Assembly: GCA_028284185.1 (NCBI GenBank)
Contig: JANQSG010000017.1
Location: 62,001 to 126,000, forward strand
DNA length: 64,000 bases
Direction: 5' to 3'
Source: Kangiella sp.
Lineage (GTDB): Bacteria > Pseudomonadota > Gammaproteobacteria > Enterobacterales > Kangiellaceae
Part shown: one piece after another, positions 152 to 8,199 of the stretch
How the letters are laid out: each line of letters opens with the position of its first letter
Numbering within the stretch: the first letter of the stretch is position 1
Made by a program: the position numbers and the translations under genes
Notes under the pieces: model-generated
The model's database searches: none
What the model saw: the letters and a program-made list of their open reading frames with translations, nothing else
Told to the model about the DNA's origin: nothing

Positions 152-1390
152 TCAAGATCTTACCTGCATACTGCGTTTATGCCAAACCAGTTGTTCTGCC
201 TGAGCCAAAATCTGACCAGTCCATGCTAATTGAGCTCGACCAACATCTGAAACCTGCTGGAATGACTGTTGCTTTAAAAAGCTTAAAACGCTTAATCCAC
301 TGGATCGATTGGCTGTCGCCAAAGTTGGTAAAGTATGATTAGGGCCAGCACAATAATCACCAAAAGCGACTGCACTATTTTCACCAATAAATAAAGAACC
401 ATAATGTTTAAGTTGCGGTGGCTCTATTCGCCTATCTATCAATAACAAATGTTCAGCCGCATACCGCTCTGAAAACTCGATCATCTGCTGCACATTATCT
501 GCCTGTAGCAAGATAATCTGTTGTCGTTCAACTAATTCCTGCAATTCACCATTATCCGCCAACTGTTCAGCTACTGTTTTTAGTAACTGCTGGTTATCCG
601 TGAGCAAAAGACTTACCGCTTGTGGATCATGCTCAGCCTGGGCAGCCATATCCGCAATAATCCATTCAATATTTTCTATTTTATTGGCTAAAATCAGCAA
701 CTCACTGGGCCCAGCAGCCACATCAATCGCAACCCGGTTTTGTAGTAACTGTTTGGCAGCATTGACATACTGATTTCCCGGGCCAACAATCATATGAACA
801 GGTTTAAGATCCTGATAGCCCAAAGCCATTGCGCCAATAGCTTGAGCGCCGCCAATACGAATAAAATCGGTAGCGCCTGCCAAACTCGCTGCGGCCAGAA
901 TAGCAGGATGATCCGAAGGTGAACAGGCGATGCGTTCTTCACAGCCAGAAACTTGCGCAGGAATCAAAGTCATAAGTGCGGTTGAAATCAAAGGAAAACG
1001 GCCGCCAGGAATATAGGCAGCAATTCGTTGTATTGGCTTATAGCTAAAACCAAAAACGCCTGCTTCGTCTTGATAAGACTGCTCAACCAGTTGCGCTTTT
1101 TGAAACTGACAAAATTTTTCAATACGGCCAGCAGCCTGCTTTATAGCACCTTTCAACTCATCTGATAAATCATATTCATCAAATGGCTTTAAGACTATTT
1201 TTTTAGGCTTAAAACCATCAAATTGCTCACTTAATTGAGTGATTTTTATATCTTTTTGCTCAACATCACAAGCTTCGATTTCTGATAACAATTGCTGAAC
1301 CAGCTGTAGCGTTTTATGGCTATCCTCAATGCCAGGGCGCTGCCACTGCATACAGTTCTTAAACTCGACAGGAAAAGATTTAGCTGGCAT
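152..1390 (-). CDS. hisD: HisD, histidinol dehydrogenase
   Basis: Catalyses the last two steps of histidine synthesis, oxidising histidinol to histidine with NAD. The family landmarks are present: the AGPSELLILA segment, the zinc-ligand region AAQAEHDPQ, the catalytic Glu-His pair in YAAEHLLL, the GDYCAGPNHTLPT segment and the C-terminal His in WHKRSM. The open frame extends further upstream. The ATG at 1390 (MPAKSF) is preferred because it overlaps the end of the preceding fusion gene by only 11 bases and gives 412 residues; the family is usually about 430, so the N-terminus is slightly short. It is the last his gene of the operon. Confidence 0.95.
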   Translation of the reverse strand: MPAKSFPVEFKNCMQWQRPGIEDSHKTLQLVQQLLSEIEACDVEQKDIKITQLSEQFDGFKPKKIVLKPFDEYDLSDELKGAIKQAAGRIEKFCQFQKAQLVEQSYQDEAGVFGFSYKPIQRIAAYIPGGRFPLISTALMTLIPAQVSGCEERIACSPSDHPAILAAASLAGATDFIRIGGAQAIGAMALGYQDLKPVHMIVGPGNQYVNAAKQLLQNRVAIDVAAGPSELLILANKIENIEWIIADMAAQAEHDPQAVSLLLTDNQQLLKTVAEQLADNGELQELVERQQIILLQADNVQQMIEFSERYAAEHLLLIDRRIEPPQLKHYGSLFIGENSAVAFGDYCAGPNHTLPTLATANRSSGLSVLSFLKQQSFQQVSDVGRAQLAWTGQILAQAEQLVWHKRSMQVRS

Positions 1391-2618
1391 TACGCGCCCC
1401 CAATTCATTAAGAATTTCCTGCGCCGATATCCCTTTGGCCTTGGCATTAACCAACGCAAAATAGAGTAAATCAGCGGCTTCCCAGCGAACCTCATCCTTA
1501 TCGACTGCCTCAATCAACTCCTGGCACTCTTCATTAAGTTTATCAATTTGTAATTGGGGCGAATCAAATAATTTGCGGGTAAAAGAGCTGCTGGAAAAAT
1601 TATCTTTTCGAGATTGCAACACCTTATCCAAAACAGTCAAATCAAAACAGGGACTTTGTGAAACAAAACAACTGTAACGATCATAATGGCAGGCATTACC
1701 CTGTTGCTTGACTCTAAAAATCAAACTATCACCATCACAATCGTAGTCAATATTCATCAGTTGTTGGCCGTTACCACTGGTTAAACCTTTTTGCCAAAGT
1801 TCATTGCGCGAGCGACTAAAATAAATACCTTTACGCTGCTGAATAGCCTGCTGTAATGATTCTTCAGAAGAATAAGCCAGCATCAAAATCTGATGGTTTT
1901 CGATATCCTGCACTATGGTCGGTATTAAGTCAGCTTTGGTAAAATCAAGACAAGTCATCAATGCTTCACTTAATTTAATTCTGCCGGTATAAACTGACAT
2001 GCCAATCTGACTATTGGCACCTAATTGATTAATTACTTTAATATCCTCAAGTTTGGTAATACCGCCGGCCACCGTTACCGGGATTTTGGACTGTGCAACA
2101 ACCTGTTTAATCCTTTTTTCATCAATGCCCTGCAATAAGCCCTCTTTTTTAACCTGGGTATATAAAAACTCACTGCAATTTGTTTGCAGCTCATCCATCA
2201 AATCCAAAACTTTAATTGCATCGGTCGCTTGCCAACCATGTGTAACCCAGTCATCGTCTTTAGCATCAATGGCAAAAATTAGCTGATTTTTAGGTAGCTT
2301 TTTAACAAAATCCTTACGACAAGAAGTGCCAATAATAATTTTTTTAGCTCCACAGGACAAATACTCTCTTGCCGTATCGTAATCACGAATACCGCCACCG
2401 ACACGACATGGATACTTGGCTATTAACTGCTTAATTAATGCTTTATTATCCCCTCGACCCAAAGCTGCGTTTAAATCAATAATGGCTACTTCACCATATA
2501 ATGAAAATTCTTCTAATAGCTCAAAAACATTATCTTTTTCGACTATTTTCCTGTCCGGATCGCCTTGTTGCAGTTGAACCGCTTTGCCATCTAATAGATC
2601 AATGGATGGGATTAACAT
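1380..2618 (-). CDS. HisA-HisI-HisE trifunctional fusion
   Basis: One 412-residue protein carries three histidine-pathway activities. Residues about 1-228 are a HisA-type (beta/alpha)8 isomerase with the catalytic Asp in PSIDLLDG and the phosphate-binding VGGGIRD and VAGGI segments. Residues about 229-330 are HisI (PRA-CH), with WQKGLTSGNGQ and the metal-site motifs DCDGD and CH...RYSCF. Residues about 331-412 are HisE (PRA-PH), with EECQELIEA and EAADLLY. In the HisA part the usual TDI segment that supplies the second catalytic Asp reads TQV, followed by KKEGLLQGID, which resembles the divergent and eukaryotic-type HisA group. The gene overlaps hisF by 7 bases. The domain calls are firm; full activity of the HisA part is inferred. 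Confidence 0.9.
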   Translation of the reverse strand: MLIPSIDLLDGKAVQLQQGDPDRKIVEKDNVFELLEEFSLYGEVAIIDLNAALGRGDNKALIKQLIAKYPCRVGGGIRDYDTAREYLSCGAKKIIIGTSCRKDFVKKLPKNQLIFAIDAKDDDWVTHGWQATDAIKVLDLMDELQTNCSEFLYTQVKKEGLLQGIDEKRIKQVVAQSKIPVTVAGGITKLEDIKVINQLGANSQIGMSVYTGRIKLSEALMTCLDFTKADLIPTIVQDIENHQILMLAYSSEESLQQAIQQRKGIYFSRSRNELWQKGLTSGNGQQLMNIDYDCDGDSLIFRVKQQGNACHYDRYSCFVSQSPCFDLTVLDKVLQSRKDNFSSSSFTRKLFDSPQLQIDKLNEECQELIEAVDKDEVRWEAADLLYFALVNAKAKGISAQEILNELGARNAS

Positions 2619-3966: not shown

Positions 3967-4556
3967 AAAACACCTTTTGAGCTGTTTTCAATAGCTACTG
4001 GTTGTAAAGCTTCTTTTAGAGCGAAGGCCAGACCTTTAAAACTAGCTTCAATCAAATGATGGTTATTATCAAAATATTCGGCTTTGATATGTAACGTCAG
4101 CTGAGCATTAATGGCAAAACTGTAAAAAAAGTGCGACCACATTTCTGTAGCAATATTACCCACCATTTCCCGCGTAAAGGGTAAATCGGTCAATGCATAA
4201 GAACGTCCGCAGACATCCACTGCAATCATTACCAGGCTAGCATCCATCGGTAACAATCTTTGACCATAGCGTTTAATTGCAGCCTCTTGTCGCCAAGCCT
4301 GATTCAAAGCCTGACCCAAACAAATAGCCACATCTTCAACCAGGTGATGGTCATCAACCTGCAAATCACCTTTGGCACACAAAGTTAAATCCCAACCTGC
4401 ATGCAGGGCAAGTTGCGTTAGCATATGATCAAAAAATGGTAATCCCGTATCGATTTTTAATTGCTGTTGACCATAAATATTGAGCTCTAACTCAATCTCG
4501 GTTTCCTTTGTACTTCTGTTAATCCTAATAGGTTTTGCGGTCTGTGATTGGCTCAT
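3963..4556 (-). CDS. hisB: HisB, imidazoleglycerol-phosphate dehydratase (dehydratase domain only)
   Basis: Dehydrates imidazole glycerol phosphate to imidazole acetol phosphate. The manganese-binding histidine motifs DDHHLVED and NNHHLIEASFK and the FFDHML motif are present in a 197-residue protein. This is the monofunctional form: it lacks the N-terminal phosphatase domain of the E. coli bifunctional HisB. The phosphatase domain fused to the upstream HisC probably fills that gap. It overlaps the hisC fusion by 4 bases. Confidence 0.97.
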   Translation of the reverse strand: MSQSQTAKPIRINRSTKETEIELELNIYGQQQLKIDTGLPFFDHMLTQLALHAGWDLTLCAKGDLQVDDHHLVEDVAICLGQALNQAWRQEAAIKRYGQRLLPMDASLVMIAVDVCGRSYALTDLPFTREMVGNIATEMWSHFFYSFAINAQLTLHIKAEYFDNNHHLIEASFKGLAFALKEALQPVAIENSSKGVL

Positions 4557-6265
4557 AGCAACACCTCCAATTGGTTGACATTTTCAATAATTAAATCGGC
4601 TCCTGCCGCCAATAAAGCGTCTTTGGTCATATCATTATTGGCAATACCGATAGCAATGACTTGCGCGGCTTTAGCAGCCTGCATATCGTCAGGTGCGTCA
4701 CCAAACATCCAACAAGTCTCCGCCTTGAAAAACTTTTTTGCCTTGTTAATGCCTTCCGGATCAGGTTTTGACAATTCCACATCATCATCACTGATCAAGA
4801 CGGTATTTTTAATATTCAATTTTTCCAAACCTTGCAGGGCCTCATTTTTAGGCCTGCCCGTTACCACCGCTGTATTTAAGGCTTTTCGTTTACCAGAAAA
4901 GACTCTATTAACTATCGCCTGGGTAATAAGCGGTTCTTCTTGTTCAGATAAGCCTTGTTGAGTGGCACTGCCTGAATAAAAACTTTGAAACTTGGCTACC
5001 ACTGATTCGAAATCAACTTTATAGCCTGATTCAAGAATAATCTGTTGAGCCAGTTTCCAATCATTATTAAAACCACCCCTTGAGCGCACTGCTAACAATT
5101 TATCTTGTGAAACCACTTCATTAGTAAAGGCCTTAACGGTTTCTATAATGCACTGATCATAGCTTTTTTGGGTATTGATCAAGACACCATCCATATCAAA
5201 ACATAACAATTGAGGTTCCAGAGCTAATTGCAAAGCCACTAATAATCTATCCAGATAATACGGAATCGTTATTCGTAGTGCCTGAATGTCATTATTAACC
5301 TCTGACAAACCCACTAACTGACTCTTAATCTGAATATCGTCTTGACGACAAGCAGCATCAATCAATTGGAGTTTTTGTCTCGCACCTTGTACAAAAACAA
5401 AATTTGCCTGACTATCAATAACTGATAATCCCTTATCTCTTAAGTAATTAGTAACCAGTTGTCGATTTTGTTTAACCTGCTGGCAATATGCTGTTACTTC
5501 CAAACGTGCGCTATCCGAAAAAGCCTGTTTGGCAAACTCAAGATTGGGGCTGGAAATATTAAATGGCATGGCCAAACTTTTAAATTGTTGAATAATTTTT
5601 GCTGCTCCCAATAAATAGCCAACTCTAATTCCTGCCAGACCATAAGCTTTAGATAGCGTTCGTAAAAGTACAATATTATCGAACTGCTCAATAAGTTTAA
5701 GGCTGGTTTGATCGTCACCGGTAAATTCAATATAGGCTTGATCTAAAAATATCCATGCACCTTTTTGTTGAGCATCATAAGCTGCTCTTTCTATCTGCTG
5801 CAGTGTTAGAGTTTCACCTGTTGGGTTATTAGGGCTGGTTAAAACTAAAACACTATCACTTTCCAGTGCGGCTAATGCTGCATCAAAATTTATAGTCAAA
5901 TCCTGATTGGCTTCAATCAATTCAGCATCCAGTTGCCAACTGTCTTTTCCTGCCCAATACTGGCTAAAGGCAGGTAACGGCAGAATGAGTTTTTTGTTTT
6001 GTAATCTAGTGAGTTTAAATAGTAATTCAATCGCTTCATCACCACCATTAGTCACTAATAATTGCTCTTCCGTCAGATTAAATCGTTGAGTAATCATTTT
6101 GCTCAAGGATGCTTTATCGGGATAAGCCCATAGTTTCTGCGCATCAATTTCGTTGCTTTTTAACCATGCTGGAAACTTATCCGAGCGTTCATTAAAGTCC
6201 AGTTTGAGCAATTTTTTATTCATAATGCTCAATAATACTGGCTGGTTTTCGAGTGATTTTTTCAT
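4553..6265 (-). CDS. hisC: HisC aminotransferase fused to a HAD-type phosphatase
   Basis: Residues about 15-350 are histidinol-phosphate aminotransferase (PLP fold I), with SPNNPTGE, the Asp in FLDQAYIEF, the PLP lysine in RTLSKAYGLAGIRVGY, and ALRITI near the end of the domain. Residues about 353-570 are a haloacid-dehalogenase-superfamily hydrolase, with the DxD nucleophile motif in LCFDMDGVLINT, TGRPKNEA, a conserved Lys in SKPDPEG and MFGDAPDD. Because hisB lacks its phosphatase half, the HAD domain is the likely histidinol-phosphate phosphatase; that is an inference from context. Start ATG at 6265 was chosen because AGGGG lies just upstream; a TTG two codons earlier is less likely. Confidence 0.92.
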   Translation of the reverse strand: MKKSLENQPVLLSIMNKKLLKLDFNERSDKFPAWLKSNEIDAQKLWAYPDKASLSKMITQRFNLTEEQLLVTNGGDEAIELLFKLTRLQNKKLILPLPAFSQYWAGKDSWQLDAELIEANQDLTINFDAALAALESDSVLVLTSPNNPTGETLTLQQIERAAYDAQQKGAWIFLDQAYIEFTGDDQTSLKLIEQFDNIVLLRTLSKAYGLAGIRVGYLLGAAKIIQQFKSLAMPFNISSPNLEFAKQAFSDSARLEVTAYCQQVKQNRQLVTNYLRDKGLSVIDSQANFVFVQGARQKLQLIDAACRQDDIQIKSQLVGLSEVNNDIQALRITIPYYLDRLLVALQLALEPQLLCFDMDGVLINTQKSYDQCIIETVKAFTNEVVSQDKLLAVRSRGGFNNDWKLAQQIILESGYKVDFESVVAKFQSFYSGSATQQGLSEQEEPLITQAIVNRVFSGKRKALNTAVVTGRPKNEALQGLEKLNIKNTVLISDDDVELSKPDPEGINKAKKFFKAETCWMFGDAPDDMQAAKAAQVIAIGIANNDMTKDALLAAGADLIIENVNQLEVLL

Positions 6266-6274
6266 GGACAACCC

Positions 6275-7123
6275 CTAAAGCACCTTGCGGATTGGAGTTT
6301 CCAGAATATCGGTAGCTCCGGCCATAATTAACTTTGGTAATAATTCTTTGGTTAACTTACGCTCAATCGCTGCCTTTATGGCAAAACCATCAGCATTATA
6401 GAGTTGACTCACGGTTGGTGAACGCATTGCTGGTAGTAAAGAAACAATGGTATCAATATTGTCTTTACTACAATTCATTTCCAACAGGACTCGCTGGCGC
6501 CCATTCATTACACCTCGCATTAACAATAACAAATCATCAATCTGCTTTTTCTTCCCGGGATCTTTTAACACCTGCTTATTAGCGATTAACTGAGTTGAGC
6601 TTTGCATGGCTGTACCGACTATCTTCAAACGATTGGCCCGAATAGTAGAACCGGTACTGGTATTGTCGATAATCATGTCGGCATCTTCTGGCGGGAAAAC
6701 CTCAGTAGCGCCATAAGCCCGAAACAACTTGTATTTAACACCAAGAGAATCCAGATAATTAGCAGCAATTTTTTTATATTCAGAAGCAACAAGAATTTGC
6801 CTTTGCTTTACCTGATCCCACTGCCAATCTTCCGGAATACAGGCCACCAGGCTTACGGGGTTAAAGCCAAGATCCTGTAATACTTCAACCTCTGCCTGCT
6901 GCTCAACAATCCAATCCATACCGGCAAAGCCAATATCGTGTTGACCCAATGCCACCATTTCAGGAATATTCTGACTTTTCAATAACTTAACTTCGATATC
7001 GCAACCAAATAAAGTTGGTCTGTAATTACGACTATCACCGATTAATGTTAGCCCTATATCTGATAAAAGCTCCGCTACCTTGTCATATAACTTGCCTTTT
7101 GGAATCACCATTTTTAATGCCAT
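6275..7123 (-). CDS. hisG: HisG, ATP phosphoribosyltransferase (long form)
   Basis: First, committed step of histidine synthesis, joining ATP and PRPP. The 282-residue length is the long hexameric form with a C-terminal ACT-like regulatory domain that binds histidine, so no HisZ is needed. The motif DMIIDNTSTGSTIRANRLK marks the PRPP-binding region. The ATG at 7123 is preferred over an upstream codon because a GGAGAG ribosome site lies just before it. It is the first structural gene after the double-attenuator leader. Confidence 0.96.
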   Translation of the reverse strand: MALKMVIPKGKLYDKVAELLSDIGLTLIGDSRNYRPTLFGCDIEVKLLKSQNIPEMVALGQHDIGFAGMDWIVEQQAEVEVLQDLGFNPVSLVACIPEDWQWDQVKQRQILVASEYKKIAANYLDSLGVKYKLFRAYGATEVFPPEDADMIIDNTSTGSTIRANRLKIVGTAMQSSTQLIANKQVLKDPGKKKQIDDLLLLMRGVMNGRQRVLLEMNCSKDNIDTIVSLLPAMRSPTVSQLYNADGFAIKAAIERKLTKELLPKLIMAGATDILETPIRKVL

Positions 7124-7160: not shown

Positions 7161-7197
7161 AACAAAAACCCCGTTGACCTTTCGGAGCAACGGGGTT
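7161..7197 (-). terminator. his attenuator terminator 2 (proximal to hisG)
   Basis: On the minus strand AACCCCGTTG (7197-7188) pairs with CAACGGGGTT (7176-7167), a perfect 10-bp stem, followed by a T-rich run. The upstream arm can instead pair with leader 2: AGCGACGG at 7241-7234 is complementary to CCGTTGCT at 7193-7186 (8 bp, one G-U). This is the mutually exclusive terminator/antiterminator arrangement of classical his attenuation. Confidence 0.88.
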
Positions 7198-7221
7198 GTA
7201 AAGATTCTTTTCAGCTAACCA

Positions 7222-7287
7222 TTAGTCATACCACCGTCGCTTTCGCAGTGTGTGATGATGATGGTGTAAGCTAACAATTCTCAACAT
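7222..7287 (-). CDS. His leader peptide 2 (21 residues, five consecutive His)
   Basis: A short frame starts at the ATG at 7287 and ends at TAA 7222. It reads MLRIVSL, then HHHHH, then TLRKRRWYD. An AAAGG ribosome site lies upstream. The His run is codons 8-12 and the antiterminator segment is codons 16-18. A ribosome stalled for charged His-tRNA would leave that segment free to pair with the terminator arm. It is the control peptide for attenuator 2 and is not expected to act as a protein. Confidence 0.88.
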   Translation of the reverse strand: MLRIVSLHHHHHTLRKRRWYD

Positions 7288-7320
7288 TCGATTTATTACC
7301 TTTAGTTTATTTGCCGTATA

Positions 7321-7349
7321 AAAAAACCCGCTTTGTCGGCGGGTTTTTT
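7321..7349 (-). terminator. his attenuator terminator 1 (distal, also downstream of ispD)
   Basis: The minus strand has A6CCCGC (7349-7339), a 7-base loop and GCGGGT6 (7331-7321), an 11-bp stem with a T tract; it could work in both directions. Alternative partners lie in leader 1: GGCGG (7403-7399) matches CCGCC (7342-7338), and GCTTTGT (7397-7391) matches ACAAAGC (7336-7330). Either pairing would break the terminator. It lies 33 bases after the stop of leader 1. Confidence 0.82.
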
Positions 7350-7381
7350 GTGTTCTTTATAAATATAAATCAGGTTATTTT

Positions 7382-7456
7382 CTATACACAACAAAGCACC
7401 GCCATCGAGCTTGCATGATGGTGGTCGTGATGTCTTTGCGAATAAACCGTTTTCAT
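7382..7456 (-). CDS. His leader peptide 1 (24 residues, HHDHHH)
   Basis: A short frame from the ATG at 7456 to TAG 7382 reads MKTVYSQR, then HHDHHH, then ASSMAVLCCV. Five His codons fall in six positions. The His codons overlap an arm (7425-7417) that can form an 8-of-9 base-pair hairpin with 7406-7398, the expected pause or protector hairpin. This frame is followed by terminator 1. The arrangement repeats that of leader 2, which supports a second genuine attenuator. There is no clear ribosome site before the ATG. Confidence 0.75.
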   Translation of the reverse strand: MKTVYSQRHHDHHHASSMAVLCCV

Positions 7457-7462
7457 AGCCCG

Positions 7463-7491
7463 ATTAAAACTTAAGTTTGTTAGTATTGCAA
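7463..7491 (-). promoter_or_regulatory. Candidate his operon promoter
   Basis: On the minus strand TTGCAA (7491-7486) and TTTAAT (7468-7463) are separated by 17 bases, a good match to a sigma-70 promoter. It lies in the 41 bases between ispD and leader 1. Transcription would begin almost at the leader 1 ATG, so leader 1 would be nearly leaderless. Alternatively leader 1 is translated from transcripts that read through from ispD. Only the motif is visible; use is inferred. Confidence 0.5.
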
Positions 7492-7497
7492 GACTTT

Positions 7498-8199
7498 TTA
7501 ATCACTTAATGAAATAGAAGCCAAAATAAGGTCCTCATGCTCAGTAACTTTAATATTTCGTTTGGAACCCGTCACTAACGCAGGATGATAACCTTGTGCT
7601 TCCATAGCCGAAGCTTCATCGGTAATGACAACGCCTTGTTCGACGGATAAGGCAATGGCATCTGCCAATGTTGTTACTGGAAAAAATTGCGGAGTTTGTG
7701 CCAACCAGATGGTTTCACGAGGAATAGTTTTATTAATGGTTTGTTGATTATTAGTGACTTTAACCGTATCGAAAGAGGGAACCGCCAAAATCACCCCATC
7801 AACAGAAGATTCCCGAGCGCGAATTAAATTGTCGATATGCAAACTATACAAGCAAGGACGAGCTGCATCATGCACCATTACCCAATCATTGCTCCCACCA
7901 AGCGCTTGGATTTTGGCTAAACCATTGGCAACAGAATCCGCTCTTTCAGTGCCACCTATAACAGTAACCACCTTTTCATGGTCTTTGATTGACAGCTTAG
8001 GCCAATGTTTATCTTCAGGGTGTAATACCACCACCACTTTATAAATAGAAAGGTGCTTTAAAAAATTGCTTAAGCTGTGTTCCAAAATGGTTTGATTACC
8101 GATGGTTAAATATTGCTTAGGCGTATCCGATCCCATTCTTGAACCAATCCCCGCCGCCGGGATCAAGGCCCAAATTTTTTCTGGCTGTTCTAGTGACAT
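7498..8199 (-). CDS. ispD: IspD, 2-C-methyl-D-erythritol 4-phosphate cytidylyltransferase
   Basis: Transfers CMP to MEP in isoprenoid synthesis. The CTP-binding loop IPAAGIGSRMG...TPKQY, GGTERADSV and VHDAARPC are all typical. The ATG at 8199 (233 residues) is preferred over an upstream TTG because IspD proteins normally start just before the WALIPAAG segment. It follows ftsB as in many gammaproteobacteria, but its usual downstream partner ispF lies 7.4 kb away on the far side of the his operon. Confidence 0.95.
   Translation of the reverse strand: MSLEQPEKIWALIPAAGIGSRMGSDTPKQYLTIGNQTILEHSLSNFLKHLSIYKVVVVLHPEDKHWPKLSIKDHEKVVTVIGGTERADSVANGLAKIQALGGSNDWVMVHDAARPCLYSLHIDNLIRARESSVDGVILAVPSFDTVKVTNNQQTINKTIPRETIWLAQTPQFFPVTTLADAIALSVEQGVVITDEASAMEAQGYHPALVTGSKRNIKVTEHEDLILASISLSD

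Follow-up and report, generated by a model that had tools for sequence, protein, structure and literature searches.

The his operon of this Kangiella genome is most probably controlled by two complete ribosome-mediated transcription attenuators arranged in series, both of which would read the charging of tRNA-His. Attenuation by a histidine leader peptide is a textbook case in which each operon has a single unit, and the classical his leader possesses an ordinary 5′ UTR. Two tandem His-attenuator units in one his leader had been proposed for positions 7491-7161 of the minus strand by a sequence-only reading of the window, that is, the whole 64-kb stretch of DNA analysed here, and this arrangement was confirmed, with the leader frames, the terminators and a promoter located between ispD and hisG (Table 1). 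The translations likewise bear out the five His codons that had been counted in each leader frame (HHDHHH in the first and HHHHH in the second), and the intrinsic terminator noted after each frame is found at both T1 and T2 as a G+C-rich hairpin followed by a T run.

Table 1. Features of the his leader and its flanking genes in the window.
Feature	Coordinates	Strand	Details
ispD	end at 7498	minus	41 bases upstream of leader 1
his promoter	7463..7491	minus	-35 TTGCAA (7491-7486), 17 bases, -10 TTTAAT (7468-7463); starts right past the ispD end
Leader peptide 1 frame, MKTVYSQRHHDHHHASSMAVLCCV	7382..7456	minus	predicted, probably leaderless; ATG coincides with the expected transcription start or lies only a few bases from it
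Leader 1 His codons HHDHHH (segment 1, unit 1)	7415..7432	minus	
Unit 1 segment 2, TGGCGG, antiterminator strand	7399..7404	minus	
Terminator T1, unit 1	7321..7349	minus	hairpin -13.9 kcal/mol, then T run; segment 3 CCGCC 7342-7338
Leader peptide 2 frame, MLRIVSLHHHHHTLRKRRWYD	7222..7287	minus	upstream Shine-Dalgarno-like AAAGGT, -4.0 kcal/mol
Leader 2 His codons HHHHH (segment 1, unit 2)	7252..7266	minus	
Unit 2 segment 2, GCGACGG, antiterminator strand	7234..7240	minus	
Terminator T2, unit 2	7164..7197	minus	GAAA loop, G+C-rich hairpin -19.2 kcal/mol, T run; segment 3 CCGTTGC 7193-7187
hisG, first gene of the operon	6275..7123	minus	HisG PF01634 and HisG_C PF08029; Shine-Dalgarno GGAGAG 7133-7128, -6.4 kcal/mol

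From the frames, terminators, conservation and complementarity seen in the sequence, we infer a scheme of transcription start, translation, stalling, termination and unit independence in which each unit would work in the same manner. A ribosome stalled on the His codons would keep segment 1 off segment 2, the freed segment 2 would pair with segment 3 to form the antiterminator, and RNA polymerase would pass; when histidine is plentiful, the ribosome would run over segment 2, segments 3 and 4 would form the terminator, and transcription would end. Unit 1 would probably be translated from a leaderless transcript starting at the AUG, and unit 2 by internal initiation at a weak site. Under this scheme hisG would be reached only when both units are read through, hence the read-through chances would multiply, giving a lower leak in histidine plenty and about twice the logarithmic gain. 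Steeper control would thus be an arithmetic consequence, provided that the units are independent: with assumed rates and a leak of 5 percent per terminator, an illustrative calculation gives a range of ~20-fold for one unit vs 385-fold for two, independent units squaring the fold range and doubling the logarithmic gain, whereas one unit of ten codons would, in the same illustrative arithmetic with assumed rates, mainly shift the switching point instead. With two switches, expression of the genes should be confined to real histidine shortage, and their shut-off should be tighter than with one.

Downstream of the leader, Pfam matches indicate hisG, a hisC-HAD phosphatase fusion, hisB (IGPD), hisH, hisF, a hisA-hisI-hisE fusion and hisD, the gene names being presumptive assignments based on these matches. 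Five consecutive His codons are found at one place in the 64-kb window and in none of 100 dinucleotide shuffles, a pattern that misses unit 1 owing to the Asp inside its run; further matches to four His codons exist elsewhere in the same genome. A simple terminator scanner found T1 as a plus-strand match only, and T2 was absent from its list. The main support for a case beyond chance comes, above such shuffle tests, from conservation in other genomes.

We sampled 20 Kangiella genomes and found hisG in 19, the remaining one being 55 percent complete. Both units, with their His-rich frames, terminators and antiterminator strands, are present in 19/19 of these loci, so that the conservation of both His runs that had been called for in related genomes holds throughout the genus sample, and the interpretation as two full units in series is supported. 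In the Marinicella family, 26 of 33 genomes carry a Kangiella-type HisG at E <= 1e-40, and the 25 with readable upstream DNA comprise 14 tandem leaders, 10 single-unit leaders and one cut by a contig end (L062/L192). The latter contig starts inside a terminator ahead of a unit 2 and is probably tandem; it was counted apart in this tally and taken as tandem in the HisG tree. Duplicates were merged, e.g., by identical upstream sequence, L002 was replaced by L031, and L177 is a 20-base filler.

Across all 33 tandem loci, leader 1 contains 4-6 His codons and leader 2 contains 3-6. Pairwise comparison of the 19 Kangiella loci gave, for the final four His-stretch codons, 234 C/T third-base swaps vs 87 other differences in unit 1 and 211 vs 88 in unit 2, against 0 vs 498 (unit 1) and 20 vs 564 (unit 2) in codons 2-5, and 16 vs 425 (unit 1) and 0 vs 274 (unit 2) in the three codons past the His run, these being crude, non-independent counts in which silent means a C/T third-base swap only. 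The His codons thus appear to be under selection, differences within the His stretch being mostly CAC/CAT while neighbouring codons change otherwise. In leader 1 of one Kangiella relative (L014), a TAG stops the frame three codons early, with the His run and the antiterminator strand intact.

In each unit, a strand just downstream of the His codons could base-pair with the 5′ arm and loop of the terminator. The sequence-only reading had a leader segment pairing with the terminator arm of its own unit, and in the window this pairing reaches p = 0.025 for both units against 200 dinucleotide shuffles; a first pairing measure (500 dinucleotide shuffles) had given p = 0.17 for unit 1 and 0.012 for unit 2, and was weaker for some loci, the window's unit 1 among them. 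Over the 33 tandem loci, the antiterminator gain lies at p < 0.05 against dinucleotide shuffles for unit 1 in 21 and for unit 2 in 26 (16/22 and 18/22 in one set, 5/11 and 8/11 in the further Marinicella-family loci), and falls short of it in 12 and 7, respectively. The best duplex between segments 2 and 3 ranges from -10.8 to -18.3 kcal/mol in unit 1 and from -10.5 to -27.9 kcal/mol in unit 2. The complementary strands in most Kangiella are TGGCGG and CCGCCA for unit 1, and GCGACGG and CCGTTGC for unit 2. The seven-pair unit 2 helix forms standard pairs in 133 of 133 cells over the 19 Kangiella loci, varying at a single pair that appears as G-U, A-U or G-C, and for the unit 1 helix the paired share is 94.5% of 109 cells.

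Covariation of stems, proposed earlier as a check, is found in part. One pair of the T2 stem, in which 98.2% of cells are paired, is changed on both sides in 7/19 Kangiella loci, a level reached by 0/500 shuffles, which ignore relatedness. The 2:3 helices hardly vary within Kangiella, and the test is therefore uninformative on them there (470 of 500 shuffles as high for unit 1 and 440 for unit 2). Across clades, by inspection, segments 2 and 3 change together, as in CAACAG/CTGTTG of L205 and GGGGCT/AGCCCC of L022.

Folding by ribosome position had also been suggested, and when the folded RNA starts 12 bases beyond the middle His codon to mimic a stalled ribosome, segment 2 is computed to pair with segment 3 in 44/44 units, giving the 2:3 antiterminator. 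With the ribosome at the stop codon, the 2:3 pairing is absent and the terminator is formed in 44/44, by construction, as the covered RNA is omitted. In ribosome-free folds, the antiterminator scores above 0.5 in 4/22 loci for unit 1 and 14/22 for unit 2, and the hairpin between the His codons and segment 2 does so in 20/22 and 11/22; in the window, unit 1 is mixed (1:2 0.78, 2:3 0.54) and unit 2 closed (1:2 1.0, 2:3 0.0). An open default state of unit 2 in the absence of translation would agree with 14/22 loci, but is contradicted by the window and was not adopted. The cognate segment 2 beats that of the other unit on T1 in 16/22 loci and on T2 in 20/22, the window being an exception in that unit 2's segment 2 fits T1 equally to unit 1's own (-10.9 vs -10.8). 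Given that cognate pairing mostly beats cross pairing, the units would be largely, though not fully, independent on paper.

The two leaders appear to differ in how their translation starts. Transcription by sigma-70 polymerase starts ~7 bases past the -10 box, and in 21 of 22 tandem loci a promoter with TTGACA or a near form, a spacing of 16-17 bases and a TTTAAT-like box has its -10 ending 6-8 bases ahead of the leader 1 ATG. These two distances together would leave leader 1 with a 5′ UTR of zero to few bases; leader 1 is thus probably leaderless, a promoter-based prediction that was absent from the earlier reading. In the 22nd locus (L009) the script picked another site, and TTGCAT-17-TTAAAT at 6 bases fits by eye. 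A control scan upstream of leader 2 gave a mean promoter score of 5.6 vs 7.6 for leader 1, at distances scattered from 0 to 26 bases. The same promoter-to-ATG distance is found in 22/25 single-unit relatives (the exceptions being L055, L059 and L065), in a number of which the promoter scores no higher than the unit 2 background. Shine-Dalgarno complementarity over the 22 loci has a median of -2.7 kcal/mol for leader 2 vs -6.8 kcal/mol for hisG; leader 2 would require internal initiation, at a weak site.

The differing start modes lead to two further proposals. One, which we put forward tentatively, is that a leaderless frame 1 taken once the 5′ end emerges and an internally started frame 2 form a two-sample vote on histidine starvation; if true, a stalled ribosome would be seen twice from two independent initiations, and chance stalls and failed initiations would be rejected. 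The other is that the units respond to different signals, unit 1 to tRNA-His charging and unit 2 also to something else, e.g., the initiation of translation or the supply of ribosomes through its weak internal site, comparably to the mgtCBR leader with its two frames. Both the predicted start modes and, in a number of loci, the default ribosome-free folds differ between the units, as such a division would have it; however, with 3-6 His codons in both frames of 33/33 loci histidine is the simplest common signal, and unit 2 of the window does not show an open default, so that we regard divided signals as unlikely and keep to two units that both read tRNA-His charging.

The history of the pair was examined on a HisG tree of 63 rows, in which a clade of 44 (support 100/99) unites Kangiella with the Marinicella family; 34 of its rows are tandem, counting the cut L062, and 10 are single, all of the latter from the Marinicella family and nested inside tandem clades. 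The fewest changes in unit number on this tree are six, which are best read as one old gain and about five losses, the count alone being unable to tell gain from loss. A previous 50-row tree, rooted from outside, places the single-unit relatives beyond the same clade (99/99) and requires four changes. In Marinicella, L190 matches L189 (HisG 95 percent identical) through unit 1 and T1 and resumes just past T2; L190 has evidently lost unit 2 as a module, with the breakpoint at the shared ends of the terminators, the only loss examined at base level. The clade's single-unit members have, as judged by eye from promoter and peptide, retained the unit of the first kind. The earlier remark that recent duplication is not obvious is in accord with these data, and the pair is old. 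Since the HisG tree sets Kangiella beside another family and not its own, the his operon and its leader may have been transferred jointly between lineages. By eye, AAGAATT stands shortly before T1 in 11/19 Kangiella leaders (L003-L005, L008, L010-L016) and is absent in the window; it is also seen before T1 in some Marinicella leaders, and before T2 too in L011-L014. Its presence at both terminators is a possible trace of duplication or exchange between units.

Relatives keeping one unit, with the other decayed, had been named in advance as evidence against two functional units. No such case occurs among the 19 Kangiella loci, and in the Marinicella family 10/25 genomes are single, nested in tandem clades, the one checked pair being a clean deletion. 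It could still be argued that a single unit works, either unit 1 only or unit 2 only, the other being a relic or a plain terminator, given that these 10 genomes keep one unit (of the unit 1 kind, by eye) and that the ribosome site at leader 2 is weak. Relics would decay, however, and both His-rich frames and terminators persist in 19/19 Kangiella while the surrounding codons change, with the unit 2 2:3 helix paired in every cell, which makes one working unit quite improbable. That T1 is partly the terminator of the ispD operon, with unit 1 insulating his from read-through and unit 2 as the main his attenuator, is very improbable: ispD in the window does end close enough to leader 1 for T1 to stop ispD transcripts as well, but unit 1 possesses His codons and an antiterminator of its own and is preceded by a conserved promoter, the clade's single-unit members retain the first kind of unit, and all Kangiella loci keep unit 1, including three of 19 (L015, L040, L045) with no ispD match in the upstream flank examined and seven of 19 with ispD some 350 to 1,950 bases before leader 1. 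That both units stay with hisG where ispD is distant or not matched indicates that they belong with his and not with ispD.

Outside this clade, leaders with one unit prevail. A single unit is present in each of 19 further relatives (Pleionea, Aliikangiella and MAGs) with the same HisG type, and a survey of the DNA preceding hisG in 79 regions, 67 of them in the same order and 12 elsewhere in the class, revealed no two-unit leader; 72 of these regions were new, and seven (L099-L103, L105, L107) were already counted among the single-unit relatives. By a strict rule, 59/79 regions contain exactly one leader and 20/79 none, and a His-rich frame does emerge under a relaxed rule in at least five of the 20 (L100, L107, L114, L115, L172). 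The loose rule also yields an extra His-containing frame in some regions, none with a following terminator under the strict rule. Eleven regions of the class, picked for an open frame of >= 300 residues over HisG, plus L178, are without a His leader by the strict rule. A search of the class for Kangiella-type HisG at E <= 1e-60 in 369 genomes returned the own genome only. Left unscored for leaders were 28 distant HisG loci (L067-L073, L075-L095), L097 (without upstream DNA), and L214 and L215 (split hisG).

The enteric hisL attenuator (Rfam RF00514, His_leader) has, like these leaders, a His-run peptide, hairpins that compete and an intrinsic terminator ahead of hisG, and differs in having one unit instead of two. 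The general traits of amino-acid attenuators, namely a frame rich in codons for the operon's amino acid, a terminator before the first gene (22 + 11 loci, both units) and a computed antiterminator, are all present. At the gathering cut-off, Rfam reports nothing in the window. RF00514 at cut-off finds the classical leaders of three control loci (L157, L143 and L111; 3/3) and nothing in five loci of this group (L023, L031, L005, L058, L207; 0/5), that is, the model misses the his leaders of the group in 5/5 loci tried. A permissive run on the window gave 44 mostly chance matches, including unit 1 as His_leader at 31.8 bits vs a gathering cut-off of 49, with unit 2 not listed; the best leader family for unit 1 by E-value was Trp_leader at 35.8 bits (cut-off 41), ahead of His_leader.

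Several known systems resemble this arrangement in part. The leader of Salmonella mgtCBR contains tandem attenuators sensing ATP and proline, called a singular example by its authors, and as here a single operon has two short frames within its leader that act on it; it differs in having two signals, whereas both frames here carry His codons, each with its own intrinsic terminator (PMC3641672). The excerpt of another source mentions tandem attenuators only for Mg2+ transporters (PMC4974804). Tandem riboswitches and T-boxes likewise place two sensor-plus-terminator units in series for one ligand, and differ in that they bind the metabolite or tRNA directly, while the sensor here would be the translating ribosome (PMC12452182, PMC7583486); a digital, pseudo-cooperative response is expected for same-ligand pairs (PMC12452182), and how tandem T-boxes act is described as unknown (PMC7583486). 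In Sinorhizobium meliloti trpL, the attenuator transcript begins with the AUG of the leader peptide, comparable to the leaderless start that is predicted here, although this is a single Trp leader unit of an alphaproteobacterium (PMC7298713, PMC10117765). The rimP leader of several Gammaproteobacteria also possesses two tandem intrinsic terminators and a potential antiterminator, and the excerpt of that source names no leader peptide or amino-acid run (PMC2965389). A modelling study ties attenuator sensitivity to the number of regulatory codons (PMC1183508); evolution would in contrast have added a second race here, and not only a longer run. The series principle is thus already known from riboswitches and mgtCBR, and a series pair of amino-acid leader-peptide attenuators for the same signal is apparently new, no report of two same-amino-acid units in series being found among the literature matches listed, with most subscription journals outside the scope. 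An ermB study reportedly has two leader peptides upstream in translational attenuation, and work by Vitreschak from 2004 is said to treat attenuation in proteobacteria. A natural series pair kept genus-wide and frequent in a second family, with single-unit derivatives nearby, offers a ready experiment on the benefit of a second attenuator, which may lie in lower leak, a steeper response or noise rejection.

Several minor observations were made at these loci. In the operon of the window, HisA, HisI and HisE are fused in a single frame (1380-2618, minus strand; PF00977, PF01502, PF01503), and a HisC-like aminotransferase is fused to a HAD phosphatase (4553-6268, minus strand; PF00155, PF13419). 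Elsewhere in the same genome, by eye, trpE is preceded by aroF-like DNA without a Trp leader, and a gene with a LeuA domain lies behind ilv-like DNA. One Kangiella relative carries a TwoAYGGAY RNA match (L005:787-893, plus strand; 47.1 bits vs a cut-off of 43; clan CL00106) in the stretch separating the ispD match from the his leader; none was found in the window at the gathering cut-off. In a genome of another family (G049), the lone His leader upstream of hisG, ..HHHHHHTSVRRQRR (L104), has an end closer to that of unit 2 than to that of unit 1. Finally, six single-unit leaders (L019, L020, L021, L024, L025 and L026) have TATACAAC directly before the leader start, and five of the six have GTATATACAAC farther upstream; these shared elements look like a candidate operator, perhaps HutC-like.
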